From Acetobacter tropicalis (GTDB lineage Bacteria > Pseudomonadota > Alphaproteobacteria > Acetobacterales > Acetobacteraceae): a DNA stretch of 64,000 nucleotides. Of this stretch, positions 6,008 through 55,932 are shown in pieces (position 1 is the stretch's first letter; each line of letters opens with the position of its first letter). The notes beneath the pieces were generated by a model. The model saw nothing but the letters and a program-made list of their open reading frames with translations, did not search any database and was not told the origin of the DNA. The stretch is from NCBI RefSeq assembly GCF_001580915.1, contig NZ_LHZQ01000221.1, positions 62,001 through 126,000 on the forward strand, given 5' to 3'. Made by a program: the position numbers and the translations under genes.

Positions 6008-7866
6008 TCGCGTACCGTAGTGGGCATGGCGGCGGGGTCATCGGGTATGGCGGAAAGGGCCGTGGCGTACCACGCCTTGTTTTCCAGTAAGGAACGCGCC
6101 ACCGTCAGGTCCCGATCACTGCCCAATGCAGCCGGGCAGGCCTTGCGGATAGCCAGAATTCGCGAGACCGGCAGGGGAAAACGCGCCGCGCGGGAGGCCT
6201 GCACGGCAGGCTGGTTATCAAGCTGGCCATGGGCAAGGTCATGCATCTGGCGTGTGCTGTCCGCTTCACCAAGACTGGTGCAGATCTGCGGCATGACACC
6301 CAGCCCCTGCAACGGCCAATGCAGCGGCGCGATCACGCGGCTCCATGTCACAAACAACTCTCCTTCATCAGGCAACTGCGCCACGGTCTGCACCAGCCCT
6401 TTGCCCAGTGTAGAGCTGCCGATGACAACCGCACGCTTGTGGTCGGCCAAGGCGGCAGCCAGAATTTCGGCGGCACTTGCCGTTCGCCCATCCACCAGAA
6501 TGGCAATAGGGAGACCGTTCGTCATGTCTCCACCCTGAACAGCCCAGATATGGTTGGCTTGCGCGTCCCGCCCATCGGTGACGGCCGCCACGCCGCGGTC
6601 CAGCAGCAGGGCGGCGGCGGTTACAGCCTGTTGCAGCACACCGCCCCGGTTGCCGCGCAGATCAATAATCAGCCCCTTCAGGCCGGGGTCTTGCGTGGCC
6701 TGATCCAGATACTGGCTCATTTCCTCGGCCGTATCAGAGGAGAACGCCGTCACGCGCAGCACCACCAGAGATCCGCTGGCGAAGGCGAACACGGTTTCGG
6801 GCGGCACCTTGGCGCGGTGCAGCACAACCGTATGCCCCCTGCGCCGACCGGGTGAGAGCAATCGCAATGTTACACGGGAATCTTCCTCACCGCGCAACCA
6901 GTTGGTGACGGTCTCTACTGATTGCCCCGCCGTCAGCCGGTTATTGACCGCCAGAAGCTTGTCCCCGGTGTCCACCTCAGCCGACCATGCAGGCCCGTTG
7001 GCATTGACGGCGGAAATGACGATATCCCGTCCCTTGCGGGCCAGCGTGATACCAGCATCCGCTTCTCCTCCTACGCGGGCCTCGCGGTCCGTTGTGGCGG
7101 AGGACGGGCCGATATAGCGGGAGTAGGGGTCCAGATGGTTGAACAGTTCATCAAAAAAAGCTTGCACCAGTTCTTCCCGTGTGGCGGTGCGCACACCTTC
7201 TGAATGGTCACGGGCTGCGGCCATGAAATCCACCGCAAGTTGAGCCCATGCCTCATCGTTTTGGGCGGCGGGGGCAGGGCGCGTGAGCAGGGGTGTCTGT
7301 CCGGACAGCAGGCGGATATCAGCGCCTCGGGAATCGAGGGTCAGCGTGGGATCCAGTGCGGTCAGGCTTCCAAGCCCCCATAGTGCGAAGTCTCGGCTGG
7401 AATGCTGTTCAAGTGTGCGCGGGCCAAGGAATTCCAGCGCGGTCGCAATCACGGAATGCACAAGCGGCATATCCAGCGGGGGCGCGGCGGGAGGGGGCTG
7501 AACAGCATCAGGCAAGGCGGAAGCCGCCTGCTTCGGCGCGGCCTCCGTCCCGGCTCCGGCTTCCGGCTGGGCGGCATGTGCGTCTTCCTGCGTGTTGGCC
7601 GCACTTGTTACCGTGGTGTTGGAAGGGCCTGAAGAAGAGGCTGCCTGTGCCGCACTGGCAGCGGCTGGTGCCGTCGGCGCTTGTGCAGGTTGGGCGGCTT
7701 TCTGTGCATCCGGCGGAGCGGAGGGGAGTGTGTCTGGCCGGGGTGGCGTGTTGCCTGACTGTGCTTTAAGCGGCACGGGTTGGCACACCAGTAATGTGGC
7801 AATCAGAACACAGGGCAGCACCCGGCGTATGGGTGGCACAAGGCGTAAGGCTGCTTCAGCGCGCAT
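6004..7866 (-). CDS. Periplasmic S41 (C-terminal processing) serine protease
   Basis: The enzyme cleaves protein C-termini in the periplasm using a Ser/Lys dyad. The chosen start (MRAEAALRL) overlaps the rnr stop by 11 bases. A signal segment (VLPCVLIATLLVC) is followed by about 90 residues of Ala/Pro/Gln-rich linker. Next come a helical region, a PDZ domain (GITLARKGRDIVISAV, GDKLLAVNNR) and the S41 core. The catalytic Ser is in DGRTASAAEI (about residue 463) and the Lys in TLGKGLVQ (about 487). The linker is unusually long for CtpA. Whether it belongs to the CtpA or a divergent S41 subgroup is uncertain. The following gene is DUF1491. Confidence 0.88.
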   Translation of the reverse strand: MRAEAALRLVPPIRRVLPCVLIATLLVCQPVPLKAQSGNTPPRPDTLPSAPPDAQKAAQPAQAPTAPAAASAAQAASSSGPSNTTVTSAANTQEDAHAAQPEAGAGTEAAPKQAASALPDAVQPPPAAPPLDMPLVHSVIATALEFLGPRTLEQHSSRDFALWGLGSLTALDPTLTLDSRGADIRLLSGQTPLLTRPAPAAQNDEAWAQLAVDFMAAARDHSEGVRTATREELVQAFFDELFNHLDPYSRYIGPSSATTDREARVGGEADAGITLARKGRDIVISAVNANGPAWSAEVDTGDKLLAVNNRLTAGQSVETVTNWLRGEEDSRVTLRLLSPGRRRGHTVVLHRAKVPPETVFAFASGSLVVLRVTAFSSDTAEEMSQYLDQATQDPGLKGLIIDLRGNRGGVLQQAVTAAALLLDRGVAAVTDGRDAQANHIWAVQGGDMTNGLPIAILVDGRTASAAEILAAALADHKRAVVIGSSTLGKGLVQTVAQLPDEGELFVTWSRVIAPLHWPLQGLGVMPQICTSLGEADSTRQMHDLAHGQLDNQPAVQASRAARFPLPVSRILAIRKACPAALGSDRDLTVARSLLENKAWYATALSAIPDDPAAMPTTVRE

Positions 7867-10105: not shown

Positions 10106-10111
10106 GATGGG

Positions 10112-12808
10112 CTACTCCGCCTTTTTCTTCCGTGTGGTGGTGGCGCGTGGTTTTTTGGGCGCTGCTTTCTTCTCCTGGGCAGGAGCAGCCTCACCCTCAG
10201 CGGTTTTTGCTGTCTTTTTGGTAGCCGTTTTTTTCGGTGCGGCCTTGGTGGTGCTTTTGGCCGCGGTTTTCTTTTTGGCGGCTCCCGCTTTGGCTTTCAG
10301 GGGTTTGCCTTTTTCAGCCAGCAACGCCAGTGCCTCATCCAGCGTAACCGCGTCCATATCCGTGCCACGGGGAAGGGTCGCAACAATCTGGCCATGCTGC
10401 ACATAGGGGCCAAACCGGCCCTTGCGCACCATAACGGGTTCCTGATCCTTGGGGTGGTTGCCCAGCGTACGGATGGAGGCCAGCTTTTTGGCCAGCGCAT
10501 CCACAGCCCGGTTCAGGCCAATGGTCAGAACATCATCGTCCTTATCCAGAGACCCATAGACCGCGCCCATTTTCACAAACGGGCCAAAGCGCCCCAGTCC
10601 GGCCTGAATGGGTTCTCCTGTTTCAGGATGAATGCCAACCAGACGTGGTAGCGAGAGCAAGCCCACGGCCTGATCAAGCGTGATCTTTTCTCCATCCAGC
10701 CCTTTGGGCAGGGAAGCACGTTTGGGTTTGGCTTTCTTGTCTTCCGGGTCTGGTTCACCCTGCTGCACATACAGGCCCCATGGGCCCTGACGCACGGTGA
10801 TATCCTCACCCGTTTCGGGGTGTTGACCCAGAACGCGCATACCATCCTTCAGCGCGCTGCTGCCGTCACCGTCTTCTGCACTGTCAGCAGAAAGGCGGCG
10901 GGTGTACTGGCACTCAGGATAGTTGGAGCAGCCAATGAACGCGCCATAACGGCCCAGCTTCAGCCCAAGCCGCCCCGTGCCGCAGGCCGTGCAGTGGCGT
11001 GGGTCAGACCCGTCCGGGCGCGGCGGGAAGAAGAACGGCCCAAGATCCTGATCCAGTGCGTTCAGCACATCAGTGATGGTCAGTTCCTTGGTGTCATCCA
11101 CCGCCTTGGAGAAATCGTGCCAGAAGGAGGCCAGAACCTGCTTCCATTCCGCACGGCCGCCAGAAATATCATCCAGCAGTTCTTCAAGGCTGGCGGTGAA
11201 CTTGGTGTCCACATAGCGTTCAAAGAACGAGACAAGGAACGCCGTGACCAACCGCCCGCGGGCTTCCGGCACAAAGCGCCGGTTTTCCAGCGTGACGTAA
11301 TTGCGGTCACGCAGCACGGTAAGAATGGAAGCGTAAGTGGAAGGGCGGCCAATGCCGATTTCTTCCATTTTCTTGACCAGTGAGGCTTCCGAGAAACGCG
11401 GCGGCGGCTGCGTGAAATGCTGATCGGCCTTTACATCCTCACGCTTGAGCGGGTCACGCTCCTGCATGGGGGGCAGCATCCGGGATTCGTCATCCGCCGG
11501 TTTGTCACTGTCATCCCGCCCTTCCGTATAAAGGCGCAGGAAGCCATCAAACGTGATGATGGAGCCATTGGCGCGCAGCACGGTTTTGCCGGAGGGGCCT
11601 GCAATATCCACCGCAACCTGATCAAGGGCTGCCGATTCCATCTGGCTGGCCACCGCGCGTTTCCAGATCAGCTCATACAGGCGGCGCTGGTCCTGCGTCA
11701 GATGGGAGGCAACGGAGGACGGCGTGCGGAAGACATCCGTGGGGCGAATGGCTTCATGCGCTTCCTGCGCGTTTTTGGCTTTGGATGTGTAATGGCGCGG
11801 CTGCGCCGGAACGTAATTTTCACCAATATGCTTGCCAATGTGGGAGCGAATGGCCCCGATGGCTTCTCCTGCCATCTGCACACCATCGGTTCGCATATAG
11901 GTGATCAGACCAACGGTTTCCCCGCCCAGATCAATGCCTTCATAAAGCTGCTGGGCTGTGCGCATGGTGACCTGCGCCCCCATGCCCAGCTTGCGGGAGG
12001 CTTCCTGCTGCAAGGTGGAGGTGGTGAAAGGCGGCTGCGGATTGCGCCGCACCTTCCGCCGCTCAACAGATTTGACGGAAAGGTTTTCTGCTTCCACAGC
12101 CTTGCGGGCAGCTTCGGCCAGTTCGGCGTTGGCCAGATCAAACTGGTCAAGCTTCTTGCCATCCAGATGTGTCAGCCGGGCTGTAAACGGTGCGCCAGAA
12201 GGCGTGGTGAGGGATGCGGTAACGGTCCAGTATTCACGCGGCTGGAAAACTTCAATTTCCGCCTCACGCTCGCAGATCAGCCGCAGGGCGACGGACTGCA
12301 CGCGGCCAGCACTGCGGGAGCCCGGCAGCTTGCGCCACAGTACGGGAGAAAGCGTGAACCCCACCAGATAATCCAGCGCGCGGCGGGCCAGATAGGCTTC
12401 GATCAACGGGAAATCGAGCTCACGCGGGTGCGCCATAGCGTATTTGATGGCGCTTTTGGTGATCTCGTTGAAGGTGACGCGCTGCACCTCCACCCCTTTC
12501 AGGGCTTTCTTTTCTTCCAGCATGGACCGGACGTGCCAGGAAATAGCCTCGCCTTCACGGTCCGGGTCAGTGGCCAGATAGAGGTGCTTGGCGCCCCGCA
12601 ACGCCTTGATGATGGCGGCAACCTGCTTGGTGCCACGCTCATCAGACTGCCAGGACATGGCAAAGCCTTCGTCCGGGCGTACGGAACCATCTTTGGGCGG
12701 CAAATCGCGTACATGCCCAAAGGAGGCCAGCACGGTGTAGCCATCGCCAAGATATTTGTTGATCGTTTTCGCCTTTGCGGGCGACTCGACCACCACAACG
12801 TCAGTCAT
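10112..12808 (-). CDS. topA: DNA topoisomerase I
   Basis: This type IA topoisomerase relaxes negative supercoils. The 898-residue protein opens with the Toprim domain (VVVESPAKAKTINKYLG, then DPDREGEAISWH). The catalytic tyrosine is in GLITYMRTDGV (about residue 305). A single zinc ribbon follows (CTACGTG ... CSNYPEC), then three short C-terminal repeats recognised by GPWGLYVQQG, GRFGPFVKMG and GRFGPYVQHG. It ends in a long Lys/Ala/Thr-rich basic tail likely to bind DNA. It lies between dprA and rnr with short gaps. A long open frame on the opposite strand is a codon-bias shadow. Confidence 0.97.
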   Translation of the reverse strand: MTDVVVVESPAKAKTINKYLGDGYTVLASFGHVRDLPPKDGSVRPDEGFAMSWQSDERGTKQVAAIIKALRGAKHLYLATDPDREGEAISWHVRSMLEEKKALKGVEVQRVTFNEITKSAIKYAMAHPRELDFPLIEAYLARRALDYLVGFTLSPVLWRKLPGSRSAGRVQSVALRLICEREAEIEVFQPREYWTVTASLTTPSGAPFTARLTHLDGKKLDQFDLANAELAEAARKAVEAENLSVKSVERRKVRRNPQPPFTTSTLQQEASRKLGMGAQVTMRTAQQLYEGIDLGGETVGLITYMRTDGVQMAGEAIGAIRSHIGKHIGENYVPAQPRHYTSKAKNAQEAHEAIRPTDVFRTPSSVASHLTQDQRRLYELIWKRAVASQMESAALDQVAVDIAGPSGKTVLRANGSIITFDGFLRLYTEGRDDSDKPADDESRMLPPMQERDPLKREDVKADQHFTQPPPRFSEASLVKKMEEIGIGRPSTYASILTVLRDRNYVTLENRRFVPEARGRLVTAFLVSFFERYVDTKFTASLEELLDDISGGRAEWKQVLASFWHDFSKAVDDTKELTITDVLNALDQDLGPFFFPPRPDGSDPRHCTACGTGRLGLKLGRYGAFIGCSNYPECQYTRRLSADSAEDGDGSSALKDGMRVLGQHPETGEDITVRQGPWGLYVQQGEPDPEDKKAKPKRASLPKGLDGEKITLDQAVGLLSLPRLVGIHPETGEPIQAGLGRFGPFVKMGAVYGSLDKDDDVLTIGLNRAVDALAKKLASIRTLGNHPKDQEPVMVRKGRFGPYVQHGQIVATLPRGTDMDAVTLDEALALLAEKGKPLKAKAGAAKKKTAAKSTTKAAPKKTATKKTAKTAEGEAAPAQEKKAAPKKPRATTTRKKKAE

Positions 12809-12840
12809 ACTCTCTCCGACCTGCCGGAAGCAGCACTTGA

Positions 12841-14058
12841 TCAGCCGTCTTTTCCATGCGGTGCTGCCAGAACAATCCGCCCACCGGGGAGGGAGTCTAC
12901 GCAGCCGGAAAGCTCAAGTTCCGTGAGCACGGTCAAGACAGTGGAAGCTGAGAACTGGCAGTGCCTAACAAGATCGTCAACCGGTATGGGCGTAAAGGAG
13001 AGAAGATCAAGCACTTTTTCCCGCACGTTTTCGGGGCTGACTGGTGCCCCGCCGGAGCGTTCTGCCGGTGCGGGAAGAGGCAGGGAAAATGCGCTTTGAA
13101 TGGCGGATTTGTTCTGCTTTTGTGCAGTTGATCCCTTTTTTACACTCCCTTCCTGCACCGGGTCGGGTTGCGTGGGGAAGAGGGGAGGGTTTTTTTCAGG
13201 GCATGCAGGAATGGCGGGCAGATTGGGCAGGATATCCGCTACGCTTTCGGTCAGAATGGCACCCTGGCGCAGCAGATTGTTGCTGCCTCGGCAGCGCGAA
13301 TCAAGCGGTGAGCCGGGCACGGCAAACAGTTCTCGGCCATAATCCACCACCAGCCGGGCAGTAATCAGGGTGCCGGAATGGGGCGCAGCCTCCACCACAA
13401 CACAGCCTAGCCCCAGCCCAGCAATCAGGCGGTTGCGGCGTGGAAAATGGCGGGCCGTGGGTGTGGTGCCTAAGGGTGCTTCTGTAACCAGCACGCCTTT
13501 TTCTGCAATTTCGGCATGAAGGGCGGCGTTTTCACGCGGGTAGGGGCAGTCCAGTCCGCCCGCAATGGCGGCAATGGTCAGACCGTGCCGGTGCAACGCC
13601 CCCATATGGGCCGCACGATCTATGCCGCGCGCTAATCCGGAAATAACCACCAGCCCAGCTTCAGCCAGTTCCGTGGCCAGACTTTCCGCCAGTCTGACGC
13701 CGTGGGCCGAGGCATTTCGTGCGCCCACCAACCCCACCCCCGGTTTGCTCAGGCAGGAGGCATCTCCCAACACACTGATAACAGGCGGTGCGTCCGGGCA
13801 GGCGCGCAGCAAGGGAGGGTAGGTGGCATCGAGCAGAGTCAGAAACTGGCCCCCTATTTTCAGGGTGGCGTCTATTTCCGCCTCAATGTGCGTGGGTGAT
13901 GGAGGGATAAGTTGAGTGCGCCCGTTGCGGGCTGGCAGATGGGGCAGGGCGTCCAGCGCTGCTTCCGGGGTTTGGTAGCGCTCCACCAGCCGCCGCCATG
14001 TGCGCGGCCCTACCGAATCGGTCCGGGCCAGGCGCAGGCAGGCGGCCAGGGAGGTCAT
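12841..14058 (-). CDS. dprA: DNA-processing protein DprA (Smf)
   Basis: DprA loads RecA on incoming single-stranded DNA during transformation. The chosen ATG (MTSLAACLRLART) lies ten bases after the plsY stop, giving 405 residues. The order is a SAM-like N-terminus, the Rossmann core with LVGARNASAHG, SGLARGIDRAAH, IAGGLDCPYPREN and FPRRNRLIAGLG, a variable Pro/Gln/Ser-rich linker, and a C-terminal winged helix (PVDDLVRHCQFSASTVLTVL). comEC lies a few kilobases away, so two core competence genes share this region, although it is the gltX-to-DUF1491 run that contains dprA. Confidence 0.95.
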   Translation of the reverse strand: MTSLAACLRLARTDSVGPRTWRRLVERYQTPEAALDALPHLPARNGRTQLIPPSPTHIEAEIDATLKIGGQFLTLLDATYPPLLRACPDAPPVISVLGDASCLSKPGVGLVGARNASAHGVRLAESLATELAEAGLVVISGLARGIDRAAHMGALHRHGLTIAAIAGGLDCPYPRENAALHAEIAEKGVLVTEAPLGTTPTARHFPRRNRLIAGLGLGCVVVEAAPHSGTLITARLVVDYGRELFAVPGSPLDSRCRGSNNLLRQGAILTESVADILPNLPAIPACPEKNPPLFPTQPDPVQEGSVKKGSTAQKQNKSAIQSAFSLPLPAPAERSGGAPVSPENVREKVLDLLSFTPIPVDDLVRHCQFSASTVLTVLTELELSGCVDSLPGGRIVLAAPHGKDG

Positions 14059-14068
14059 ACGCGCGCCG

Positions 14069-14713
14069 TCATTTCTGTTTTGGCGCAACCCGTGGTTCGG
14101 TGCCGTTCAGAATACGGCCAATGTTGGCGTGATGCCGCGCCAGCACCAGAATGCTGATCAGCAACGTGGCCATGGGCTTGGGGGATGCCCGAAAGCTGAA
14201 CCCATAAAGCGCACAGTTTACCACTGGCATGACAATAAAGGCGGCAATGGCTCCGGCAGAGGAAATGCGGGTAACCCGTGCAACACCCAGCCACGCAGCG
14301 CAACCCGCCAGCCCCGTGAGCGGCGAAAGGGCGAGCATGGCGCCCAACCCCGTAGCCACGCCTTTGCCGCCCTTGAACCCAAGGAAAATGGGATAGCAAT
14401 GGCCCACAACCACCGCCAATGCGGTGACGGAGGTAATGCGGTCTGCAAAGTCTGGCGGGGTCATGATCCATGCGATCAGAACCGCCAGAAGCCCCTTGGC
14501 GGCATCCAACCCCAGCGTGGCGGCGGCAAGGTCCTTGCGGCCTGTGCGCAGCACGTTGGTGGCCCCAATATTGCCAGACCCGATTTTGCGCAGATCCCCC
14601 GCACCGGCCAGATTGGTCAGGATCAGCCCAAAGGGAACGCTTCCCAGCACGTACCCCAGGAAAGCCATGGCAGCCATAAGCCACAGCGCGTAGGACGGCA
14701 GGGCTTCCATCAT
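14069..14713 (-). CDS. plsY: Glycerol-3-phosphate acyltransferase PlsY
   Basis: The inner-membrane enzyme transfers an acyl group from acyl-phosphate to glycerol-3-phosphate, the first step of phospholipid synthesis. The 214-residue protein has several hydrophobic helices and the three family motifs: GSVPFGLIL with the following GSGNIGATNVLR, GHCYPIFLGFKGGKGVATGLG, and a later loop. Its start overlaps the stop of pyrC' by four bases (ATGA). Placement with pyrimidine genes looks like operon packing rather than pathway logic. Confidence 0.95.
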   Translation of the reverse strand: MMEALPSYALWLMAAMAFLGYVLGSVPFGLILTNLAGAGDLRKIGSGNIGATNVLRTGRKDLAAATLGLDAAKGLLAVLIAWIMTPPDFADRITSVTALAVVVGHCYPIFLGFKGGKGVATGLGAMLALSPLTGLAGCAAWLGVARVTRISSAGAIAAFIVMPVVNCALYGFSFRASPKPMATLLISILVLARHHANIGRILNGTEPRVAPKQK

Positions 14714-39462: not shown

Positions 39463-41202
39463 GTGGTTGGGGCTGGTTCCATTCTCACGTCTTTTCTTCT
39501 TTGCGGTCTGTTTGTGCTGTTTGTTGGCGCGGGTGTTCTGGCGTTGCTGCCAGATCGTGCCTTGCGGCAAGCCGCATACTGGCGGGCGGAAATGCTTGCC
39601 GCGCTGTGGGGTGGTATTGGCGTGCTGGCCATTGTTGGCGCTGCGTTGCGGGTTGAAGGCGGGGTAAGCTGGTGCCCGGTGTTCGGGCTGGATGGTCCTG
39701 CTCTCCCCATGTTGGTTTTGCTTGCGTTTACCGGCGGAATGATAAGTCAGGGGCGGCGGGGTATGGCCTGCATGCTGACAGGCCTTGCCTTTCTGGCGCT
39801 TTCTCCGCTGGTGTTTGGGCTGCTGGCGGGTACCGCGCTTGTCATGCTGGCGGATCGGGGGCGGCAGGGTGTGTGTCTGCCGGTTGCCGTTATTCCGGCC
39901 TGTATTCCAGCCGATAGTCCTCTTTCACCGTTGCTGCTGTGCCTTATGGTTCTGCTGCTGGGTTGGGGGGTATCCTCCCAGAAGGGGCCGGAAGCCATGC
40001 TGCCCGCAGGCATTGGTCTGTTTCTGTTTGGGCGCCTGCTGGCTGAGGTGGGCATTCTGGCCCCCGTGCAGCAGACCTTGCTGTTGCTGAGCGGGGGAGC
40101 GGTTGCGCTGGGTGGCTGCGTACAGGCCCTGCGCGCACCGTATGCGGCCCGTGTGGCCAGTGGGCTGGCAAGTGCCGGGTTCGGCGCGCTTGTGGTGTTG
40201 CTGACACTGGCTCTGGGCACCAGCCTTGAAGGAATGGAACAATTCCGCACGGCCACCCTGCTTGGGGCCGGGGCGCCGTTTCTGGCCATGCTGGCGCTTC
40301 TCTGGCTCTGTCGGGGGGAAACGGCACTGGATGGTCCCTTCTTTTCTCCCCGCAGTCTTGTTACGGAACTACCCGCAGGGCGTGTGTTGGTGGGGGTGGC
40401 GGTGCTGATGCTTTCCGGCCTGCCGCCTCTGGGTGGCTTTTCCGTTCTGTGGTGTTTGCTGACCGCCGGTGAACTGGCCGCCGTGAGCGCTCAGCCTGTG
40501 CAGGCGCTTTGCACCATTATGGTGCTTGTTGGGGCGAGCGTGCTCATGGTGTTGGGGCTATTGGGTCTGCTGCGGGTGACGCTGGCTGCCCTTGAGCGCC
40601 AGAAAATGCAGGTGATGCAGGCTGACGCCATGCCGGAAGGATACGGGCTGCTTTTGCTGCCTGCCGGTCTTGCTCTGGCAGCGGCGGCTGTGGTGGGCGT
40701 CTTGCCCGGTGGCTGGCTGGCCCTGATGGACCATCTGTTTGTGGGGACGGCCCCGCGTGATTTTTCATGGCGAACCCTGCTGAGCGTGTGGTTTGTGGAT
40801 ACGTCCATCAGCTTCACGCCCTTGTTCTGTGTGCTGGCGCTTCTGGTTTGTGTGGCTGCGGCTGTTGCTGTTGAGCGCGTGCTGGGGCTTTACCCCTTCC
40901 GTCACCCGCAAGCCGTGCGGGCAGAGTGGCAGGAAGCCGGGCCGGTGGTGGCACACGGTGGCGCAGTTATGGCAGCACCCAAGGCAGACCCGGTTTTGCT
41001 ATGGACCATGCTGCTGGTTTTTCTGGGTATGGAAAAACAGAAACCTGCGTCCTGGCCTGTTGTGGAGAAAACAGCGGCAGGCGGACGGTATATACGCAGC
41101 GTGCTGTTCAGAACGGTTGCATGGTGTGAGGCGCAGGGCATGGTCCTGATCCTGCTTTTTCTGGGAGCAGGGCTTGTTTGGGGACTGTTTGCCAACAAAT
41201 GA
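39463..41202 (+). CDS. hyfB: Hydrogenase-4 HyfB-like membrane subunit (antiporter-type, eroded)
   Basis: The 579-residue protein is almost wholly hydrophobic, with about 14 predicted helices, and follows the outline of HyfB/NuoM-type proton-pumping subunits (E. coli HyfB is near 670 residues). The P-L-H-x-W-L-P and V-S-A...K-x-G-x-Y signatures of active pumps are not recognisable; the matching region reads GVSSQKGPEAMLPAGIGL. Start GTG at 39463 is the first in frame and has no strong ribosome binding site. The gene heads a six-gene unit whose ends overlap by four bases or less. The assignment rests on helix pattern and gene order. Confidence 0.75.
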   Translation: MVGAGSILTSFLLCGLFVLFVGAGVLALLPDRALRQAAYWRAEMLAALWGGIGVLAIVGAALRVEGGVSWCPVFGLDGPALPMLVLLAFTGGMISQGRRGMACMLTGLAFLALSPLVFGLLAGTALVMLADRGRQGVCLPVAVIPACIPADSPLSPLLLCLMVLLLGWGVSSQKGPEAMLPAGIGLFLFGRLLAEVGILAPVQQTLLLLSGGAVALGGCVQALRAPYAARVASGLASAGFGALVVLLTLALGTSLEGMEQFRTATLLGAGAPFLAMLALLWLCRGETALDGPFFSPRSLVTELPAGRVLVGVAVLMLSGLPPLGGFSVLWCLLTAGELAAVSAQPVQALCTIMVLVGASVLMVLGLLGLLRVTLAALERQKMQVMQADAMPEGYGLLLLPAGLALAAAAVVGVLPGGWLALMDHLFVGTAPRDFSWRTLLSVWFVDTSISFTPLFCVLALLVCVAAAVAVERVLGLYPFRHPQAVRAEWQEAGPVVAHGGAVMAAPKADPVLLWTMLLVFLGMEKQKPASWPVVEKTAAGGRYIRSVLFRTVAWCEAQGMVLILLFLGAGLVWGLFANK

Positions 41203-42218
41203 CCCCAACACCTTCACCGCTTACCCTCTCCTGGGGCTGGATGTTTCTGTCTGCTCTGTCTCTTGTTGTGCAGACGGGCCTCATGCTGTTTGCCGCTCCC
41301 TTTTTTAGGGGATGGGTGGAGCGTCTGGCCGGGCGTCTGGCCGGGCAGACCCGGTATCTGGCAAGTGGCCGCTGGCAGGAAATCCGGCATCAGTTTGTGC
41401 GTCCCGGGTTTCATGAGCCTGGAGACCACCTGAGCGGTCTGGCAGCGCGTGCCGCCTTTGTGCTGGCCGTGTTGGGGGCCGGGCTTGTACCAGTTTACGC
41501 TTTGGTGCCGTCAGGCTTTCCGGCTCCTGGTTTGCTGCTGGTCTGTGGCGTGCTGGTGGGGGCCTCCCTGTTGCTCTCGTTGCCACGTGTGGTTTTGCGC
41601 GGTCAGGCCGCGCTGGGCGGCTACATGGCGTTCATGGCCGATGCCCTGCTATTGCCCTCTCTGGTGCCGGTGCTGGTTATGGTGGGTGGGCAGGATCTTT
41701 CCGCTTTTCTGGCGCATGTGCGGGGGCTTTCTCCCTTGGGGGCAGGCGCGCCTTTTGTGCTGATGGGTGTTGCATTGTTTGGTGCTGCGGCATGGCGTGG
41801 TACTTCGGTCGGGGCGGCGCAGGCCTGCCCGCTCTCTGGTGCTGACCGGGGGGTGTGGCTGCTGGCGGAAGATATTGTGCAGCTCTGCTGGGTTACGCTG
41901 GCCGGAGATGTGGCGTGGGCCGGCTGTCTGGCTCTGCCGACGGATGGCGGAGTGGAGCCATGGCTGATGGCCTGCCTGCAGGGCGGCGGTGCGTGGCTGC
42001 TCAAGCTTGTGATTGCTGCATTGCTGCTGGCCGGGATGCAGTTGATGGTTCTGCCGCCGGCCCGCCGCGCGCGGGTGCGGCTGGCCTGCGTCTTTCTGCT
42101 GGGCCTGCTGGCGTGGCAGGCGGCGTATCCGGGCCTTGCCACACCAACGGCACAGGATAAAACAGCCGCCATCCAGGTGCAGGACCCGGCCTTTGGCGCG
42201 GAAGGAATCACACAGTGA
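41199..42218 (+). CDS. hyfC: Hydrogenase-4 HyfC-like membrane subunit (NuoH family, eroded)
   Basis: The 339-residue protein begins at an ATGA overlap with hyfB. The N-terminal part (VVQTGLMLFAAPFFRGWVE ... RWQEIRHQF) matches the start of HyfC/HycD, which join the membrane arm to the catalytic core. About eight hydrophobic helices follow. The acidic loop P-F-D-x-x-E-A-E-x-E-L of the NuoH/HyfC family, near the quinone or coupling site, is replaced by CPLSGADRGVWLLAEDI. The overall fold seems kept while the charged coupling residues are reduced. The C-terminus is an extra soluble tail. Confidence 0.7.
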   Translation: MTPTPSPLTLSWGWMFLSALSLVVQTGLMLFAAPFFRGWVERLAGRLAGQTRYLASGRWQEIRHQFVRPGFHEPGDHLSGLAARAAFVLAVLGAGLVPVYALVPSGFPAPGLLLVCGVLVGASLLLSLPRVVLRGQAALGGYMAFMADALLLPSLVPVLVMVGGQDLSAFLAHVRGLSPLGAGAPFVLMGVALFGAAAWRGTSVGAAQACPLSGADRGVWLLAEDIVQLCWVTLAGDVAWAGCLALPTDGGVEPWLMACLQGGGAWLLKLVIAALLLAGMQLMVLPPARRARVRLACVFLLGLLAWQAAYPGLATPTAQDKTAAIQVQDPAFGAEGITQ

Positions 42219-42940
42219 CACTTGCCGCCATTCTGGCCCCTTTGCTGGCCCTGTGCGTGGTGGCGCGTGGCATGGGTTTCCTGCCCGTGCTGGGCGGGGT
42301 GACGGCGGTCGCCATGCTGGTGGACGGCGTGGCGTCACTGCAGGAAACAGCCGCAGCTTTTGTGCTGCTTTTTTCCATCGGGCCGGTATGGTTCCTCTCG
42401 TATTACCAGCAGGACAGAGGGCAGGAGCGGAGTGGGCCCACGGTGCCGTTTTTTGCGCTAGGGCTGATGGTTGTGCTGCTGCTGGCCAGCGCGCGGTCTG
42501 GTGCGCCGCAGTTTCCGGCTGGTCTGTGTGTGGTTCTGGCTGGGCTGGTGGCCGTAACGTACCGGCAGGCCATGATCTGGCAGTGGGCCGGGCTGCTAAC
42601 ATGTATCAACGGCGTCATGCTGGCCGGTGTGATTGAAAAGCAGGTGATGGTCGTTGGCGTGGCGGCGCTGGCGGGGTGCGTCATCAGTGTTCTGGGCGGC
42701 CTGTATGTCCACCGTGTCATGCCGCGTGTGGCGGTGGTACGGGCCTCTGGCCGCAAGGATGCGGACAGGAAAAGCAAACCTGCCGAAACGCGCTTTCGGG
42801 GGGAAGCCCCCTTACCCTCTGACCCCGTGCCTGCTTTTGGAACAACGCGGCTGGCCAAAGAGCCCCCGCGAGCTCCTGCTGATGAAGAAGGGAACGAGAC
42901 GGACAAACCCGCCCCTAAGGCAGAGGATGACCCTGCATGA
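42215..42940 (+). CDS. hyfE: Hydrogenase-4 HyfE-like membrane subunit
   Basis: The 241-residue protein starts at a GTGA overlap with the previous gene. The first 170 residues are six or so hydrophobic helices, including YRQAMIWQWAGLLTCINGVM, which fits the position and size of HyfE (NuoK-related, about 216 residues). The last 70 residues are hydrophilic and rich in Lys, Pro and Asp, not part of the usual family. The assignment depends strongly on operon position. Confidence 0.65.
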   Translation: MTLAAILAPLLALCVVARGMGFLPVLGGVTAVAMLVDGVASLQETAAAFVLLFSIGPVWFLSYYQQDRGQERSGPTVPFFALGLMVVLLLASARSGAPQFPAGLCVVLAGLVAVTYRQAMIWQWAGLLTCINGVMLAGVIEKQVMVVGVAALAGCVISVLGGLYVHRVMPRVAVVRASGRKDADRKSKPAETRFRGEAPLPSDPVPAFGTTRLAKEPPRAPADEEGNETDKPAPKAEDDPA

Positions 42941-44058
42941 CGGTGCCCGTTTTTCTTGCCGCCCTGGCGTTTGCATGGCCTTTGCTGGGGGCGGTTGTGG
43001 TCATGAGCGCCCCTACCGTGCGCAGCCGCGAGGTTGCGGTGTGGATGGCGGCCATTGGGTGTGTGCTGGCGTTGGCCGTGTTTCTTTTTCCCGCAACTGG
43101 AGCCGTGGCTGCCGGGTGGGATGATGATCCCGTGCAACGGGCCGGGCGTGTGATGCTGGCCTTTGGGCTCCTGCTGACAGTGCTGGAAAGCCGCGATATG
43201 GCGGACCGCTTCCTGCGCGGGCTGCCGCATGTGTCCACCGCATTGGCCGGGCTTGCCTGTGTTACGCCTGATCCGGTGGTGGGGCTTGGTATTCTTGAAG
43301 CCTCTCTGGCCTATGGTGTGTTTGTTTTTGGCCGTCCGGCAGGGCAGGCGCGTGCGGGTTGGGCGCTGGTGCGTACAGGGTCAGTTGGCATGTTTCTGGT
43401 GCTGGGGGGGCTGCTGTTGCCGGGGGCCTCCCCCTCGGCAGGGCTGATGATGGCCTGCGGCATTGTCATGCTGGCGGGTTTGACGCCTTTCGGTCAGCCG
43501 TGGCGTGAGGAAAATGATACCTTCCTGTTTTTGCCATTTGCCGGTGCGGCATTATTGCTCTCCATGCGGCTGCGTCCCCACGGGGGAGAGGCGTTTGATA
43601 CAGCGCTGGTTGCCGCAGGGTTGGCTTCCGTCTGGCTGACAGCGTGTGCAGGCCGGTCTGATGATGGTTTGCGCCTGTTCCGCACATTTCCTTCCGCCTT
43701 GGCGCTCATTGCCGTGGGCGCGCGGGCTGATGTAGCGGCGCTGCTGTTTCTGTGCGGTTGGTGTTTAGCAGGCGGAAGCCGCTCCGGGCGGTCCTGGGCG
43801 GCGCGGGCACTGGCCTGTTTTCCACCTGGCGCCCCGTTTGTGGGGTGTCTGCTGCTGCTTTCCGTGATGAGTGACTGGTCATGGGTGTTCACGGTGCTCA
43901 CTGTGGCGGGCATTTTATGCGCGGTTGTGAGGGCTGTACCTGCCGGGGGCTTCGGGCAGGATATCTGGCCCCGTGATACGGCAGGCCGCGTGGCGTGTTC
44001 CGTGCTGGTGGTAACCGGGTTTCTGGTGCCGCTGGCCATGATGCTGGGAGCGTTCTGA
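42937..44058 (+). CDS. hyfF: Hydrogenase-4 HyfF-like membrane subunit (short, eroded)
   Basis: The 373-residue protein starts at an ATGA overlap. It is hydrophobic throughout and lies where HyfF (about 526 residues in E. coli) belongs; it is about 150 residues shorter. The region matching the pump motif reads GIVMLAGLTPFGQPWREEND, lacking the membrane lysine expected before the P-F-H. The D-L-K-R segment after it is also absent. It therefore looks like a reduced antiporter-type subunit with a structural role or a changed ion path; that is inference. Confidence 0.65.
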   Translation: MTVPVFLAALAFAWPLLGAVVVMSAPTVRSREVAVWMAAIGCVLALAVFLFPATGAVAAGWDDDPVQRAGRVMLAFGLLLTVLESRDMADRFLRGLPHVSTALAGLACVTPDPVVGLGILEASLAYGVFVFGRPAGQARAGWALVRTGSVGMFLVLGGLLLPGASPSAGLMMACGIVMLAGLTPFGQPWREENDTFLFLPFAGAALLLSMRLRPHGGEAFDTALVAAGLASVWLTACAGRSDDGLRLFRTFPSALALIAVGARADVAALLFLCGWCLAGGSRSGRSWAARALACFPPGAPFVGCLLLLSVMSDWSWVFTVLTVAGILCAVVRAVPAGGFGQDIWPRDTAGRVACSVLVVTGFLVPLAMMLGAF

Positions 44059-45557
44059 TGGACCCTGTGGCCCATATCCGCGCTGGAGCGGAAACCGGCA
44101 CACCATGGCGGTTTCGTCTGGAAGAACTGGCTTGGCGGGATCTGGTGGATGGCCTGAAGCAGGAGGCTCTGCCTTTTGTTGGTCTGTGGTGTGATGGAAC
44201 AGACGTACACGTGCTGTTTCTGCCTCATGGCAATCAGCCTCTGGCCGCTACGCTTGCATTGGAAGATGGCCGCTACCCCGCTTTGTCTCCGGCCCGAGCG
44301 GTTTCCAGCCTGTATGAACGCATGGTGTTTGACCTGTATGGCGCAGAAGCCATGTGGGCGCGGGATGTGCGGCCTCTGGTTGATCATGATGTCTGGACCA
44401 GCACCACGCCGCTTGCGTCAATGCCGGGACCGGCAGGTGGCCATAAGGGCATGATTGCATATCAACCGTCCGAGGCCTTTTTGGCAGCGGAAGGGCTTGC
44501 AGCAGGCATCGGGCCTGCCACTGGCCGCACAGGCGCCCCCATGCATGTTGCCCTGACCTTGGCAGGTGAGACCATTGTGGGTGCTGAAACGGTGACAGGC
44601 TATGCGCATCGGGGCATGGCCTTGCGGTGGCGTAACAGCCGCGTGGATGAGGCCTGCCGCCTGAGCGGGCGTGTGGCTGCCGGATGTTCCGCAGCGCATC
44701 AGGTGGCGTTCTGTCAGGCTATAGAAACGGCCTGTGGCGAGCAGATCGGGCATGAGGTCAGCCAGTTGCGCGTGGTGCTTCTGGAACTGGAACGTTGCGT
44801 GCAGCATCTCTACACGCTGGCGGCGCTGGCGCAGGAGGCCGGAGCGGTTCTGGTTGCGTCTCGCTGCATGTGGTTCCGGGAACAGCTTTTGAAGGAGGCT
44901 GCTCCCATTCTGGGGTCACGTCTGTTGATGGATCATTGCGTTCCGGGCGGCGTAAGCCTGCGCAGTGCGTCTGACGTAGGGGACCTTTGCACGCGTCTGG
45001 CAGAATTGGGCGAGGAAAACTATTCCGCCCTCTCAGAACTCTGGCGCGGGTATCCGGGGCTTTCTGCACGTCTGGCAGGTATCGGCATACTAGACCGTGC
45101 GGCATTGGAACGGTTGGGGCTGGACGGGCCTGTTGCCCGTGCTGCTGGTGGCGATAGTGACTGCCGCCGCGATATGCGAATGTATGATGGCCTATGGCGT
45201 TTTACGGCAGGCCGACATGGGGGCAGCGTGGACGATCGTACTGCCGTGCTGCTTGATGAGGTTGGAGAAAGCCTGCGCATGCTGGCTGATCTGGCTCCGC
45301 GCCTTGGTCTGACCGCGGGAGGCCGCATAGACCTTTCCTATCAGGACGGAGAAGGTATTGGCATGGCGGAAGGTCCATGGGGCAGGGTGCTCTACTGGGT
45401 GCGTTTGCTGAATGGGCGGGTGGAGCACGTTTTCCTGCGCGATCCCTCCTATCCGGCACTGATGGCATTTGAAACCGTGCTGCCCGGCCAGAACGTTGCG
45501 GATGTTGCGCTCATAAAAGCCTCGTTGGGCGTAAATGCCGCAGCCCAAGATGGATGA
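44058..45557 (+). CDS. hyfG: Hydrogenase-4 large-subunit homologue HyfG lacking NiFe ligands
   Basis: The 499-residue protein starts at a TGATG overlap. The N-terminal 120 residues resemble the NuoC-like part (YPALSPARAVSSLYERMVFD); the rest matches the hydrogenase/NuoD-like part (GYAHRGMALRWRN). In NiFe enzymes two C-x-x-C pairs bind the metals. Here the first reads RVAAGCSAAH, so only Cys210 remains and position 207 is Ala. The C-terminal S-L-D-P-C-x-x-C reads SLGVNAAAQDG, so both Cys are lost (Asn493 and Ala496). Hydrogen chemistry is therefore excluded on known mechanisms. The family called Ehr shows this kind of loss. Confidence 0.8.
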   Translation: MDPVAHIRAGAETGTPWRFRLEELAWRDLVDGLKQEALPFVGLWCDGTDVHVLFLPHGNQPLAATLALEDGRYPALSPARAVSSLYERMVFDLYGAEAMWARDVRPLVDHDVWTSTTPLASMPGPAGGHKGMIAYQPSEAFLAAEGLAAGIGPATGRTGAPMHVALTLAGETIVGAETVTGYAHRGMALRWRNSRVDEACRLSGRVAAGCSAAHQVAFCQAIETACGEQIGHEVSQLRVVLLELERCVQHLYTLAALAQEAGAVLVASRCMWFREQLLKEAAPILGSRLLMDHCVPGGVSLRSASDVGDLCTRLAELGEENYSALSELWRGYPGLSARLAGIGILDRAALERLGLDGPVARAAGGDSDCRRDMRMYDGLWRFTAGRHGGSVDDRTAVLLDEVGESLRMLADLAPRLGLTAGGRIDLSYQDGEGIGMAEGPWGRVLYWVRLLNGRVEHVFLRDPSYPALMAFETVLPGQNVADVALIKASLGVNAAAQDG

Positions 45558-45593
45558 TGGCGGAGAGCAGGACGTGAAGAAAGACAAACACCC

Positions 45594-46115
45594 ATGGGCC
45601 TGATTCGCGCCGTGTTTGATGCCACTTTTCGTCAGGGAGGTGCGCGCCTCAAGCCTGTGGGACCGCGCTGGCCCCTGCTTCTGTTTCATGTGGATACGGG
45701 CGGCTGTGGTGGGTGCGGTATGGAACTCCAGGCATTGGCAACCGGCCCCTATGATGCTCAGGGCGCGGGGTTCGGGTTTGTGCAGTCTCCCCGTGCGGCT
45801 GATGTTTTGCTGGTAACGGGTGCAGTGACACGCAGCATGATGCCTGTTCTGGAAGCCACATGGCAGGCCATGCCGACTCCAAAAGGGCTGATCTGCGTGG
45901 GGAATTGTGCTGTGGATGGAGGGATGTTCACAGAAAACTACGCCGTAATGGGCGGACTGGACCGGAAGGTGCAGATTGATCTGCGTATTCCCGGCTGTCC
46001 GCCTTCACCGCACGATGTGCTGGAAGGTCTGTTTTCCCTGTTTGGGAAGCGGTTGGAAGAGAATGCCTCAGCCGGTCAGGATGAGGGAGTGGGTTCGTCT
46101 TCCACGTCTTCCTGA
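45594..46115 (+). CDS. hyfI: Hydrogenase-4 small-subunit homologue HyfI (NuoB-like, Fe-S)
   Basis: The 173-residue protein keeps the [4Fe-4S] ligands of the NuoB/HyfI family: VDTGGCGGCGMEL (Cys38 and Cys41), ICVGNCAVDGG (Cys101 or Cys105) and RIPGCPPSPHDVLEGL (Cys135). It would pair with the HyfG-like protein and hold the cluster next to its active site. The gene starts 36 bases after hyfG with a weak ribosome binding site. Its 3' end overlaps the convergent pssA by 40 bases, so the last residues (GQDEGVGSSSTSS) share DNA with the end of pssA. No ferredoxin-like HyfH follows. Confidence 0.85.
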   Translation: MGLIRAVFDATFRQGGARLKPVGPRWPLLLFHVDTGGCGGCGMELQALATGPYDAQGAGFGFVQSPRAADVLLVTGAVTRSMMPVLEATWQAMPTPKGLICVGNCAVDGGMFTENYAVMGGLDRKVQIDLRIPGCPPSPHDVLEGLFSLFGKRLEENASAGQDEGVGSSSTSS

Positions 46116-52811: not shown

Positions 52812-54545
52812 CTAGGGCGCGCAGCCATCTTCAAGCAGTACCTCGCGCACCAGTTCAGCCGGTACATCCCGTGATGTAAAAGCCTTGCCGATTCCGCGCA
52901 CCAGAACGAAAGAGAGACGACCGTCCTGCATTTTCTTGTCCCGCTGCATGTGGACTATCAGGTCAGTTGCGCTGAACGAGTATGGCAGGTTTCTAATGCG
53001 TGCAGGCATGCCCAGCGTCTCCAGATGGGCAGTTACCCGCTCCAGGTCTGCCTGAGGGCATACCCCCAGCTTAACGGAGAGCGCAAAGGCCAGACGCAGC
53101 CCGATGGAGACTCCTTCTCCGTGCAAAAGGCGGCCGTCATAACCCAGTTCAGCCTCCAGAGCGTGGCCGAACGTGTGGCCCAGATTCAGCAGGGCGCGCC
53201 CATCCGAGCCTTGTTGTTCCCGCTCATCCGCCGCCACAACGCGGGCTTTGAAGGCGCAGGCCTGTCGTACGGCTTCCGTCTGGGATTCAGGATCAAAATT
53301 CAGGACCGATTCCCCGTGCTTTTCACACCATTCAAACAGGGCCGGGTCTCCGATCAGGCCGGACTTCACAATTTCGGCATAACCCGCGATCAGTTCCCTT
53401 TTGGGCAGAGTTGTCAGTGCCGATGCATCTGCCAGCACACTTAACGGTTGATGGAACGCGCCGAGGAGATTCTTGCCCCAGCGTGTGTTGATGCCGGTTT
53501 TTCCCCCAACGGACGAATCAACCTGAGAAAGTAGAGTTGTGGGAATCTGCACAAAGGGAAGGCCGCGCAACGTGGTGGCTGCTATAAATCCGGCAAGATC
53601 CCCTACCACGCCGCCGCCCAGAGCAACGATGGTGGTTTTACGCTCCACCCCTTCTTGTAGAATCTCATCTACCAGCCGTTCATAGGTGGCAAAGCTTTTG
53701 GACTGCTCTCCTGGCTGCACGATAAGAGTGCGGAACCGGATGCCTGTATCCTGCATGGAGGCTTCCAGTCGGGGCAGATGCAGGTCAGCGACGTTTTCAT
53801 CCGTGATAATGATGACACGTTTCTGCGGCAGCACGGGGGCCAGAAGCGCACCCGCCCGGCTGATCAGATCCGTGCCGATCACCACATCATAAGTCGTATG
53901 GCTCAGGCTGACAGGCAGGCGTATGGGCCGGCGGGAAAGCGCCATGGCTTCAATCACGCGGGAAGTGCTGTGGTCCACGTTGTGGTCTCCGCAATCAACA
54001 ATAATGTCCGCCTCCGCATAAATAGGGTGGCGGATGGTCATCAGCCGCGCCAGCACATCACGCGGGGGGGCATCATTCAGGAGGGGGCGATGGCTGCGGC
54101 CCTGCACCCGGCGTAAAAGAACAGGTAGGGGGCAACGCAGCCAGATGGAAATGGCACGTTCGCGCACCAGGTTGCGAGTACTTGCATCCATATACGCCCC
54201 TCCGCCGGTGGCCAGCACCATGGGCGGCCCTTCCAGAAGGCGGCGGATGACGCGGCGTTCTCCATCACGGAAGGCGGCTTCTCCATACAGGCGGAAAACA
54301 TCGGCAATGGAGCACCCGGCGGCGCGTTCTATTTCAATATCGGCATCAACAAAGGGCAGGCCCAGCCGTGTGGCCAGCCTGCGGCCAACGGTGGTTTTGC
54401 CCGCGCCCATCAGGCCAACAAGCACAATGCTGCGCCCGGAAGGGATAAGCCCGGTGCTGTGCCGGTTGCCAACCCTTTCCAGATCAAGCGGAATCGGCGG
54501 TGGGTCCGCCGTATCGTGTGGGGGATACGAGATACGTGATGACAT
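52812..54545 (-). CDS. aroKB: Bifunctional shikimate kinase / 3-dehydroquinate synthase
   Basis: The 577-residue fusion covers two steps of aromatic amino acid synthesis. The N-terminal kinase has the P-loop VLVGLMGAGKTTVGRRLA, the shikimate-binding DADIEIERAAG and FRDGE, and VLATGGGAYMD. From about residue 210 the NAD-dependent dehydroquinate synthase follows: TDENVADLHLP, GGGVVGDLAGFIAATTLRG, PTTLLSQVDSSVGGKTGIN and NLGHTFGHALE. In most bacteria aroK and aroB are separate adjacent genes; the fusion is known in acetic acid bacteria. ATG at 54543-54545 is chosen; the ribosome binding site is weak. It is divergent from a small membrane protein gene. Confidence 0.95.
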   Translation of the reverse strand: MSSRISYPPHDTADPPPIPLDLERVGNRHSTGLIPSGRSIVLVGLMGAGKTTVGRRLATRLGLPFVDADIEIERAAGCSIADVFRLYGEAAFRDGERRVIRRLLEGPPMVLATGGGAYMDASTRNLVRERAISIWLRCPLPVLLRRVQGRSHRPLLNDAPPRDVLARLMTIRHPIYAEADIIVDCGDHNVDHSTSRVIEAMALSRRPIRLPVSLSHTTYDVVIGTDLISRAGALLAPVLPQKRVIIITDENVADLHLPRLEASMQDTGIRFRTLIVQPGEQSKSFATYERLVDEILQEGVERKTTIVALGGGVVGDLAGFIAATTLRGLPFVQIPTTLLSQVDSSVGGKTGINTRWGKNLLGAFHQPLSVLADASALTTLPKRELIAGYAEIVKSGLIGDPALFEWCEKHGESVLNFDPESQTEAVRQACAFKARVVAADEREQQGSDGRALLNLGHTFGHALEAELGYDGRLLHGEGVSIGLRLAFALSVKLGVCPQADLERVTAHLETLGMPARIRNLPYSFSATDLIVHMQRDKKMQDGRLSFVLVRGIGKAFTSRDVPAELVREVLLEDGCAP

Positions 54546-54609
54546 GAAACGCAGCTTACCATAGAGCAGGGAGAACACACCTATCTCTGTTGTTATGGAG
54601 CAAAGCCTC

Positions 54610-54909
54610 ATGAACCGTATGGTTCTCATTGTTGCAGCCGTGGTCTGCGTTGCCCTGGTAGGCGGGTTTGCAGCACTTGGCCTGACCGCCCATCCTCCTG
54701 TGCCTCAGGCCGTGCATCGTGATGTGGCTCTGGCCGCACCGCCTGCGGCAGCCCCGGCCCCGCTGGCCCCTGTTCCGGCTCCGCCGTCTGCGCCCGTTGT
54801 AACGCCTGTGGCCCCGGTGCAGCAGCCTGTGGCCGCTCCGGCCGCGTCTGCACCTGTGCCAGCAGGCGCTGCTCCTGCTGCACCGGTAGCCGCTCCTGCC
54901 CAAAAATAA
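54610..54909 (+). CDS. Small Ala/Pro-rich membrane-anchored protein
   Basis: The 99-residue protein has one N-terminal hydrophobic helix (MVLIVAAVVCVALVGGFAALG) and a tail made almost entirely of Ala, Pro and Val with no predicted fold. GGAGCAAAG precedes the ATG at 54610; an ATG 15 bases earlier is also possible. It lies between aroKB (divergent) and xerD (17 bases downstream, same strand), so it is probably co-transcribed with xerD. Such tails span the periplasm in TonB-like proteins, but nothing else identifies it. Confidence 0.6.
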   Translation: MNRMVLIVAAVVCVALVGGFAALGLTAHPPVPQAVHRDVALAAPPAAAPAPLAPVPAPPSAPVVTPVAPVQQPVAAPAASAPVPAGAAPAAPVAAPAQK

Positions 54910-54925
54910 GGGTGCTGCTGTAATT

Positions 54926-55861
54926 ATGTCTGGCAGCCGCGAGACGGAGCTGTTTCTGGAAATGCTGGCGGCAGAACGGGCCGCCGCGCCGAACACGCTT
55001 TCTGCCTACGCGGCTGATCTGGAGTCCTGCTCTGCTTTTCTGGTGGCGCAGGGTATGTCTCTCATCGAGGCCGATACCAGTAGTCTGGCTGCATGGATGG
55101 CTGACCTGGGGGCGGAAGGGCAGGCACGGCGCACTGTGGCGCGTCGGCTTTCCTGCATCAGGCAGTTTTATCTGTTTCTGCTGCGCGAAGGGATGCGGGC
55201 CGATAATCCCGCCGCCCATCTGGAATCGCCTCAGCCGGAATCGACACTGCCGCATTTCCTCTCCGAATCGGAGGTCGTGGCGCTGATCGAGGCTTGTGTA
55301 GCCCCCGCCGAGGCTTCTCCGGCCAAACAGCGCCGGGCGTTGGTGGCGCGGGCGGCGCTGGAATTGCTCTACGCCTCCGGCCTGCGGATTTCCGAACTGC
55401 TAACCCTTCCTGCCGATGCCCTGAAAAACGAAAAGCCTATGCTGGTGATTCGCGGGAAAGGCGGGCGGGAACGTCTGGTGCCCATCTCGGCTAGTGCGCG
55501 GGAGGCTGCTCTGGCATTGCGGGCATGGGATCAGGCGTTGGAAAGCCCCTGGTTGTTTCCGGGCCGGGATACGCGCCGCCCCCTTACCCGGCAGGCCTTT
55601 GATAAAATCCTGCATGAAGTGGGCTGTCAGGCCGGGATTGATCCTGCCCGGCTTTCTCCGCATGTGCTGCGCCATTCCTTTGCAACGCATCTGCTGGCGC
55701 ATGGGGCGGACCTGCGGGCGTTGCAGATGCTGCTGGGGCATGCGGATATCGCCACCACCCAGATTTACACACATGTGCAGACCGAACGGCTGAAAAAGGT
55801 GGTGGAAACCTATCACCCGCTTGCCACACAGAGCGAAAAAACGCGCGAAAAAGCAGGCTGA
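54926..55861 (+). CDS. xerD: Tyrosine recombinase XerD
   Basis: XerD with XerC resolves chromosome dimers at dif during division. The 311-residue protein has the SAM-like core-binding domain and a catalytic domain with Arg in YASGLRISELLTL, Lys in IRGKGGRERLVP, the H-x-x-R motif SPHVLRHSFATHLL, the second His in LLGHADIATTQ and the nucleophile Tyr281 in TQIYTHV. The length and close match to chromosomal Xer proteins argue against a phage or transposon integrase. The XerD rather than XerC label is likely but not certain. Confidence 0.92.
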   Translation: MSGSRETELFLEMLAAERAAAPNTLSAYAADLESCSAFLVAQGMSLIEADTSSLAAWMADLGAEGQARRTVARRLSCIRQFYLFLLREGMRADNPAAHLESPQPESTLPHFLSESEVVALIEACVAPAEASPAKQRRALVARAALELLYASGLRISELLTLPADALKNEKPMLVIRGKGGRERLVPISASAREAALALRAWDQALESPWLFPGRDTRRPLTRQAFDKILHEVGCQAGIDPARLSPHVLRHSFATHLLAHGADLRALQMLLGHADIATTQIYTHVQTERLKKVVETYHPLATQSEKTREKAG

Positions 55862-55932
55862 GCCATCTTCATGCCAAGCATGATGCACGAAGTGGCTTGG
55901 TTTTACGCGTGACTGTGCTATCCGCTTTGCCC

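Follow-up and report, generated by a model that had tools for sequence, protein, structure and literature searches.

Gene content of the locus

The window analysed here is a stretch of 64,000 nucleotides from Acetobacter tropicalis (assembly GCF_001580915.1, contig NZ_LHZQ01000221.1, positions 62,001 to 126,000). Positions 39463-46115 of its forward strand hold six head-to-tail open reading frames (ORFs) without internal stops, homologous to hyfB-C-E-F-G-I and called B, C, E, F, G and I below. They resemble the operons of Ehr complexes, which the available text of PMC6349859 describes as lacking NiFe ligands and as suspected, from their antiporter subunits, of charge translocation. As judged from alignments, a second loss accompanies that of the NiFe site in the window: most of the charges along the presumed proton path are gone from three membrane subunits. 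The features are as follows.

39463..41202, + strand: hyfB-like subunit (B) of predicted antiporter fold; GTG start, 579 aa
41199..42218, + strand: hyfC/NuoH-like subunit (C); ATG start, 339 aa; canonical conserved acidic residues gone
42215..42940, + strand: hyfE-like subunit (E), assigned by position and a hidden Markov model (HMM) link to relatives; GTG start, 241 aa; variable C-terminal tail
42937..44058, + strand: hyfF-like subunit (F) of predicted antiporter fold; ATG start, 373 aa
44058..45557, + strand: hyfG-like large subunit (G), NuoC- plus NuoD-like, without a NiFe site; ATG start, 499 aa
44670..44699, + strand: former L1 NiFe motif in G, now RVAAGCSAAH, with one Cys
45522..45548, + strand: former L2 NiFe motif in G, now SLGVNAAAQ, with no Cys
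45594..46115, + strand: hyfI/NuoB-like small subunit (I); ATG start, 173 aa; presumed cluster ligands C38, C41, C105 and C135 present

Successive ORFs overlap by 4 bases at B-C, C-E and E-F and by 1 base at F-G, G and I are separated by 36 bases, and no extra gene lies between the six. The longest ORF covering G starts at 43995. Sister species have the same order of the six genes; gene calls in high-GC relatives are crude, so that the order in any single relative is approximate. The ORFs, together with the profile links given below, bear out the gene order and overlapping ends reported in the original prediction, which had been made from the sequence alone.

Identity of the subunits

In Pfam, G matches Complex1_49kDa (1.8e-21) and I matches Oxidored_q6 (2.6e-27), and the assignment of the large and small subunits as NuoC/D- and NuoB-like comes from both Pfam and NCBIfam. 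For B, C and F there is no Pfam match at E<=1, and E matches only two unrelated families (E 0.37 and 0.56). More widely, no relevant Pfam match was found at that threshold for the four membrane proteins of either the window or locus L051, or for the two tested from each of L045 and L067. What identifies the membrane genes as hyf is instead their profile links to canonical relatives. Profile comparison with HHalign connects B to canonical HyfB (1.7e-38) and F to canonical HyfF (3.9e-7), and C and E are reached from canonical loci by iterated HMM searches. At the canonical locus L057, Pfam recognises the HyfB-like (PF00361, 2.3e-44), HyfF-like (PF00361, 1.4e-42) and HyfC-like (PF00146, 8.7e-38) proteins, the HyfE-like protein matching PF00420 at 3e-4, under the family cut-off.

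Predicted structures agree with these links. The AlphaFold (AF2) models of B and F have pLDDT values of 85.3 and 83.7, respectively, and both predicted folds are antiporter-like. The F model superposes on E. coli NuoL (7p7l_L) over 358 residues, nearly its whole length, with a Z-score of 32.6 at 3.1 A; the B model aligns with MBS (6u8y_X) over 484 residues, again nearly the whole length (Z 29.4, 4.0 A), and with HycC (7z0s_C; Z 29.3), both by VIA-align.

Among named relatives, the large subunit is 89% identical to that of Acetobacter senegalensis, 77% to A. indonesiensis, 71% to A. cibinongensis and 40-44% to Gluconacetobacter species; this comparison covers 26 loci confirmed among 85 pattern matches, which may not include records of the window's own genome or of very close ones. 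The hyfE-like ORF (42215-42940 in the window; also L035 and L104-L108) ranges in length from about 190 to about 400 aa between close Acetobacter species, the difference lying mostly in the C-terminal tail.

The NiFe site

Below, 'hollowed grade' denotes the stripped form, that of the window included, and 'other grade' the remaining members of the family in Acetobacteraceae. Three of the four NiFe cysteines had been said to be missing from the large subunit, and the complex not to be a hydrogenase. Both statements stand: RVAAGCSAAH retains one cysteine and SLGVNAAAQ none, so that the window protein has 1/4, and there is no match to HypD (PF01924) in the window's genome (G000), a profile found in 4/14 control genomes. 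The positive controls, E. coli HyfG and HycE, show 4/4 in the same alignment. Across the hollowed-grade large subunits (n=56) the ligand positions hold no Cys in 43 and a single one in 13, at the first position in 2, the second in 11 and the third or fourth in none, with one or two gaps per position. The cysteines are likewise absent from all four positions in 19/19 other Acetobacteraceae and 24/24 other alphaproteobacteria, and the loss of the NiFe site is thus older than the family. The operon contains no ferredoxin-type subunit (HyfA/HyfH), the rest of the genome not having been searched for such genes.

The sole intact homologue met is a separate, true Hyc-type group 4 hydrogenase (L219; G029:C1:741000-760000, ~7782-14531) in an Acetobacteraceae genome of 1.9 Mb, with RVCGICG...DPCYSC (4/4 Cys) and HypD near by. 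HypD is also found in two reduced Acetobacter genomes of 1.5-1.7 Mb (G210:C27:6305-7362, as two overlapping pieces, and G284:C21:12749-13789).

Loss of charged residues from the membrane arm

The charged membrane-arm residues of complex I, Ech, Mbh and Ehr are regarded as the machine itself. We followed four antiporter positions, namely those of E. coli NuoL E144, K229 and K342 and NuoM E407, which correspond to the Glu of transmembrane helix 5 (TM5), the Lys of TM7, the Lys of TM8 and the Glu of TM12, together with the charged positions of NuoH. Residue identities at these NuoL, NuoM and NuoH positions were read in the E. coli sequences, and we take the residues to act in proton transfer. The combination EKKE is found in E. 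coli HyfB and HyfF, in 12/19 B and 11/15 F proteins of the other grade and in 23/23 F proteins of other alphaproteobacteria, and the residue-bearing form is thus still present in other Acetobacteraceae as well as beyond the family.

The hollowed grade is very different. In its B proteins (n=52) the alignments show nothing corresponding to the stretches that bear the TM5 Glu and TM7 Lys, the TM8 Lys position is occupied by A, S or C in 38, and at least 51 have a non-acidic residue in place of the TM12 Glu. In F (n=52) the TM7 Lys is replaced by L, V, A or M in 52/52 and the TM12 Glu by a non-acidic residue in at least 51/52. Equivalents of NuoH E157, D213 and E220 are present in 12/12 canonical C proteins and 0/56 hollowed ones, in which the residue classes of R37 and R46 survive in 4/56 and 6/56, respectively.

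Without these residues, an oxidoreduction coupled to pumping is unlikely. The 'helix patterns' cited in the original prediction do not point to an energy-converting complex here, since the residues taken to carry protons in antiporter- and NuoH-like subunits are missing.

Conservation and selection

The small subunit has kept its four Fe-S cysteines, presumed ligands of one cluster, in 56/56 hollowed-grade and 18/18 other sequences. Near-invariant residues of G in both grades include E87, R88, D92, G95, H184, R205, R238, E243, R288 and D292, among others.

The operon is under purifying selection. Median ratios of nonsynonymous to synonymous substitution (dN/dS) over 37 species pairs are.126 for B,.101 for C,.134 for E,.030 for F,.082 for G and.049 for I. 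The corresponding values for neighbouring genes are.127 for a methyltransferase (32 pairs) and.051,.061 and.043 for pssA, psd and alaS (37 pairs). These are Nei-Gojobori estimates from non-independent pairs with partly saturated synonymous sites, and many loci cover alaS only in part. The operon medians, at 0.03-0.13, speak against decay. The idea that an intact hydrogenase decayed recently was rejected on this ground, together with the family-wide loss of the NiFe cysteines and the separate standing of L219. The homologues that would have pointed to such decay, with intact cysteines in sister species, did not appear: the hollowed grade has 0-1 NiFe Cys and the others none.

Within the genus F is the most constrained protein of the operon and none of its near-invariant positions is charged, and its identity drops to 20-27% in other genera and more distant genus members. 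An overlapping antisense gene behind this conservation is unlikely, the closest-pair synonymous divergence (dS) of F being 0.77 vs 0.69-0.81 for B, C, E and I.

The large subunit was found in 48/49 genomes of the genus and in 46/46 of those of good quality, the sole miss being a genome only 68% complete, and the complex is kept in genomes as small as 1.5-2.6 Mb. No small subunit was seen beside the large one at L214, L215, L218 and L221; when whole genomes were searched, all of those tested (12/12) had a PF01058 protein, possibly NuoB where complex I is present. In G032 (genus g32) the small subunit lies about 4 kb from the large one rather than adjoining it (G032:C22:50131-50466 and 54518-55894).

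Evolutionary history

The evolutionary order of the losses was assessed with a tree built from G and I (71 taxa, 620 columns), with Ehr sequences of other alphaproteobacteria as the root. Canonical Acetobacteraceae copies diverge first, followed by a clade of 34 taxa (support 0.977) that includes partial losers. In some of these only part of the pump residues has gone (L065, EKGQ; L058, ELSA), and in others nearly all (L053, L072, L061, L063 and L220, the last with ALMR). The same clade holds the fully hollowed clade of 27 tips, with support 1.0 and a stem of 0.557. Some inner nodes are weak (0.539, 0.663, 0.77).

Another tree, with E. coli and NuoD outgroups, from which L054 was left out and L068 is absent, probably through a length filter, makes the hollowed clade sister to the canonical group, their joint Ehr node having a weak support of 0.686. 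In it G clusters with Ehr beside E. coli HyfG and HycE and apart from NuoD; a position outside group 4, which would have told against the original prediction, is not seen. We prefer the rooting on alphaproteobacterial Ehr because a distant outgroup can readily attract the long hollowed branch, the order of losses being likely rather than proven. It is thus likely that the losses are nested one within another and culminate in the acetic acid bacteria, with the number of loss events not settled.

Three genomes have two copies on separate contigs: a canonical and a stripped one in G099 (L063/L064) and G127 (L071/L072), and a canonical and a partly stripped one in G076 (L065/L066). Canonical-type Ehr is sparse outside Acetobacteraceae, with 25/240 sampled genomes of the class matching at E<=1e-40, 22 of them from other families.

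Relation to complex I

In the window's genome nuoF homologues lie on contigs C54 and C154, not on C175, the contig of the hyf-like genes. This genome has two complex I loci (C54/L001 and C154/L002); the NuoD-bearing frame of the second is longer, at 632 aa, and its nuoF falls under the family cut-off.

Among 249 genomes of the family, 19 have no nuoF match, and 18 of these have a homologue of G (E<=1e-33). Fourteen of the 18 are 99-100% complete and belong to five genera (g32, g54, g61, g70 and g101); the other four (G026, G087, G144 and G240) are drafts or less complete, and nuo may simply be missing from them. All ten of the 14 that were read lack the NiFe motifs and carry the HRG signature of the hollowed grade, so that the stripped form is also retained in genomes without complex I. 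In such genomes the protein at the B position has only 431-492 aa and is identified mainly by that position; the four antiporter residues are absent in 5/5 read, and HHalign comparison of three with the hollowed B profile gives probabilities of 79, 77 and 11%. Since complete genomes without nuoF keep the large subunit, the stabilisation of complex I was rejected as the general cause of its retention.

Genomic surroundings

The locus (contig C175 of a 3.56 Mb genome) is flanked on its 5' side by the methyltransferase gene and on its 3' side, on the opposite strand, by pssA, psd and alaS. Neighbours common to relatives comprise a leucyl aminopeptidase, holC and an aldo/keto reductase, which lie upstream in those relatives, with pssA, psd, the methyltransferase and a glyoxalase-II-like gene around. 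The conserved surroundings resemble plain synteny, and neighbouring genes were dropped as a clue to function.

Possible function

The reading that we favour, with a probability of about 0.6, is that the hollowed Ehr is a non-pumping, non-hydrogenase, membrane-anchored module with a single Fe-S cluster, acting as a redox relay or sensor. In the membrane complex that the six proteins would form, one [4Fe-4S] cluster would sit at the interface of large and small subunits, on an inert hydrophobic arm. Neither H2 chemistry nor ion pumping would take place; the complex would most likely be a redox relay, or a redox sensor or platform, for a partner common to acetic acid bacteria that would in general not be complex I. 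It probably does something not known of its relatives.

The invariance of the ligand cysteines, set against the loss of the ion-path charges, favours a relay or sensor over a scaffold. It is nevertheless possible, if rather unlikely, that the complex is purely structural and stabilises an assembly line or some other membrane enzyme, the kind of role proposed for the deranged bc1 complex. Its catalytic residues are gone, and the available text of PMC10715153 reports that bc1 and COX1-like proteins, which lack metal ligands, are likewise retained in Acetobacteraceae. Against this, the four Fe-S cysteines, kept in 56/56 sequences, would be needless in a pure scaffold, though a cluster can be structural too, and complex I in particular cannot be the general object of stabilisation, given the 14 nuoF-less genomes described above.

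It is doubtful that the complex works as an ordinary energy-converting Ehr, which would use redox chemistry on the cytoplasmic side to pump ions through its antiporter-like subunits, a reading close to that of the original prediction. The descent from canonical Ehr with EKKE in its HyfB- and HyfF-like proteins, the antiporter fold of the models, the retention of the TM5 Glu in the window's F and the suspected coupling of redox chemistry to charge translocation in Ehr (PMC6349859, as far as its text is available) would all suit such an enzyme. However, it would have to work without the proton-path residues lost from B, C and F, a loss that already makes it unlikely, with membrane subunits that match no Pfam antiporter family and with no electron-input subunit in the operon. 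A decaying relic without function is very improbable: the loss of catalytic and ion-path residues, the partial or split large subunit of four draft genomes and the lack of a match in one complete genome would agree with it, but a match in 46/46 good genomes of the genus (three only in pieces or part), low dN/dS with F even under alaS, and retention in small genomes are hard to square with decay.

Several observations weigh against the redox relay or sensor that we favour. The TM5 Glu of F is kept in 21/52 hollowed proteins, that of the window included, and the equivalent of NuoH K274 is K or R in 53/56 hollowed C proteins; other charged residues could build a new ion path. The large subunit is in two pieces in G268, G274 and G276 and only its C-terminal part is present in G287, through assembly or real breakage; three of these (G268, G276 and G287) are among the 46 good-quality genomes of the genus. 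In G066, a 100% complete genome of 2.0 Mb without nuoF, the large subunit has no match at E<=1e-3, so that the complex is not indispensable. Finally, the choice of a relay or sensor over a structural role was made mainly on the invariant cluster ligands, expression, assembly and the cluster itself being only predicted.

That a clade has done away with the charges yet keeps the folds and the Fe-S ligands under continued selection points to some other use of the architecture. The natural series of forms with all residues, partly stripped and fully stripped lends itself to testing the role of each residue. Acetic acid bacteria, the organisms of the vinegar and oxidation industries, have a respiration often called poorly coupled, and genetic tools exist for them. 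A transposon mutant collection of Gluconobacter oxydans B58 has been described (PMC12041372); the available part of that paper names no gene of the hollowed complex.

Comparison with known systems

As originally suggested, no prior description of such a complex in acetic acid bacteria was found in the literature searched, subscription papers mostly lying outside it. A parallel within the family is the deranged, non-functional bc1 of Acetobacteraceae, for which a role in stabilising complex I has been proposed (PMC10715153, available text). It shares with the hollowed Ehr, as do the COX1-like proteins, the retention of respiratory proteins without metal ligands; it differs in being another complex, and the available main text of PMC10715153 makes no mention of Ehr, Hyf, Ech, 'group 4' or antiporter.

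Compared with complex I, the window operon has NuoC/D- and NuoB-like subunits and, in the models, NuoL/M/N-like folds, but no NADH module, and the two nuo loci of the genome are separate from it. The order B-C-E-F-G-I is also found within E. coli hyf, and the likeness to Hyf and Hyc extends to the fold, as the match of the B model to HycC illustrates. However, Hyf has in addition hyfA, hyfD, hyfH and hyfJ, and HyfG and HycE have all four NiFe cysteines, which the window operon lacks along with those genes.

The closest resemblance is to canonical Ehr, which has the same six-gene B-C-E-F-G-I set (L057), a large subunit without NiFe cysteines and an Fe-S small subunit, and among which the window complex is nested in the rooted tree. 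The canonical form has Pfam-recognisable antiporter- and NuoH-like subunits and EKKE, whereas the window form has neither. Judged by its sequences, the hollowed form is a variant of Ehr, descended from it but without the residues of the ion path.

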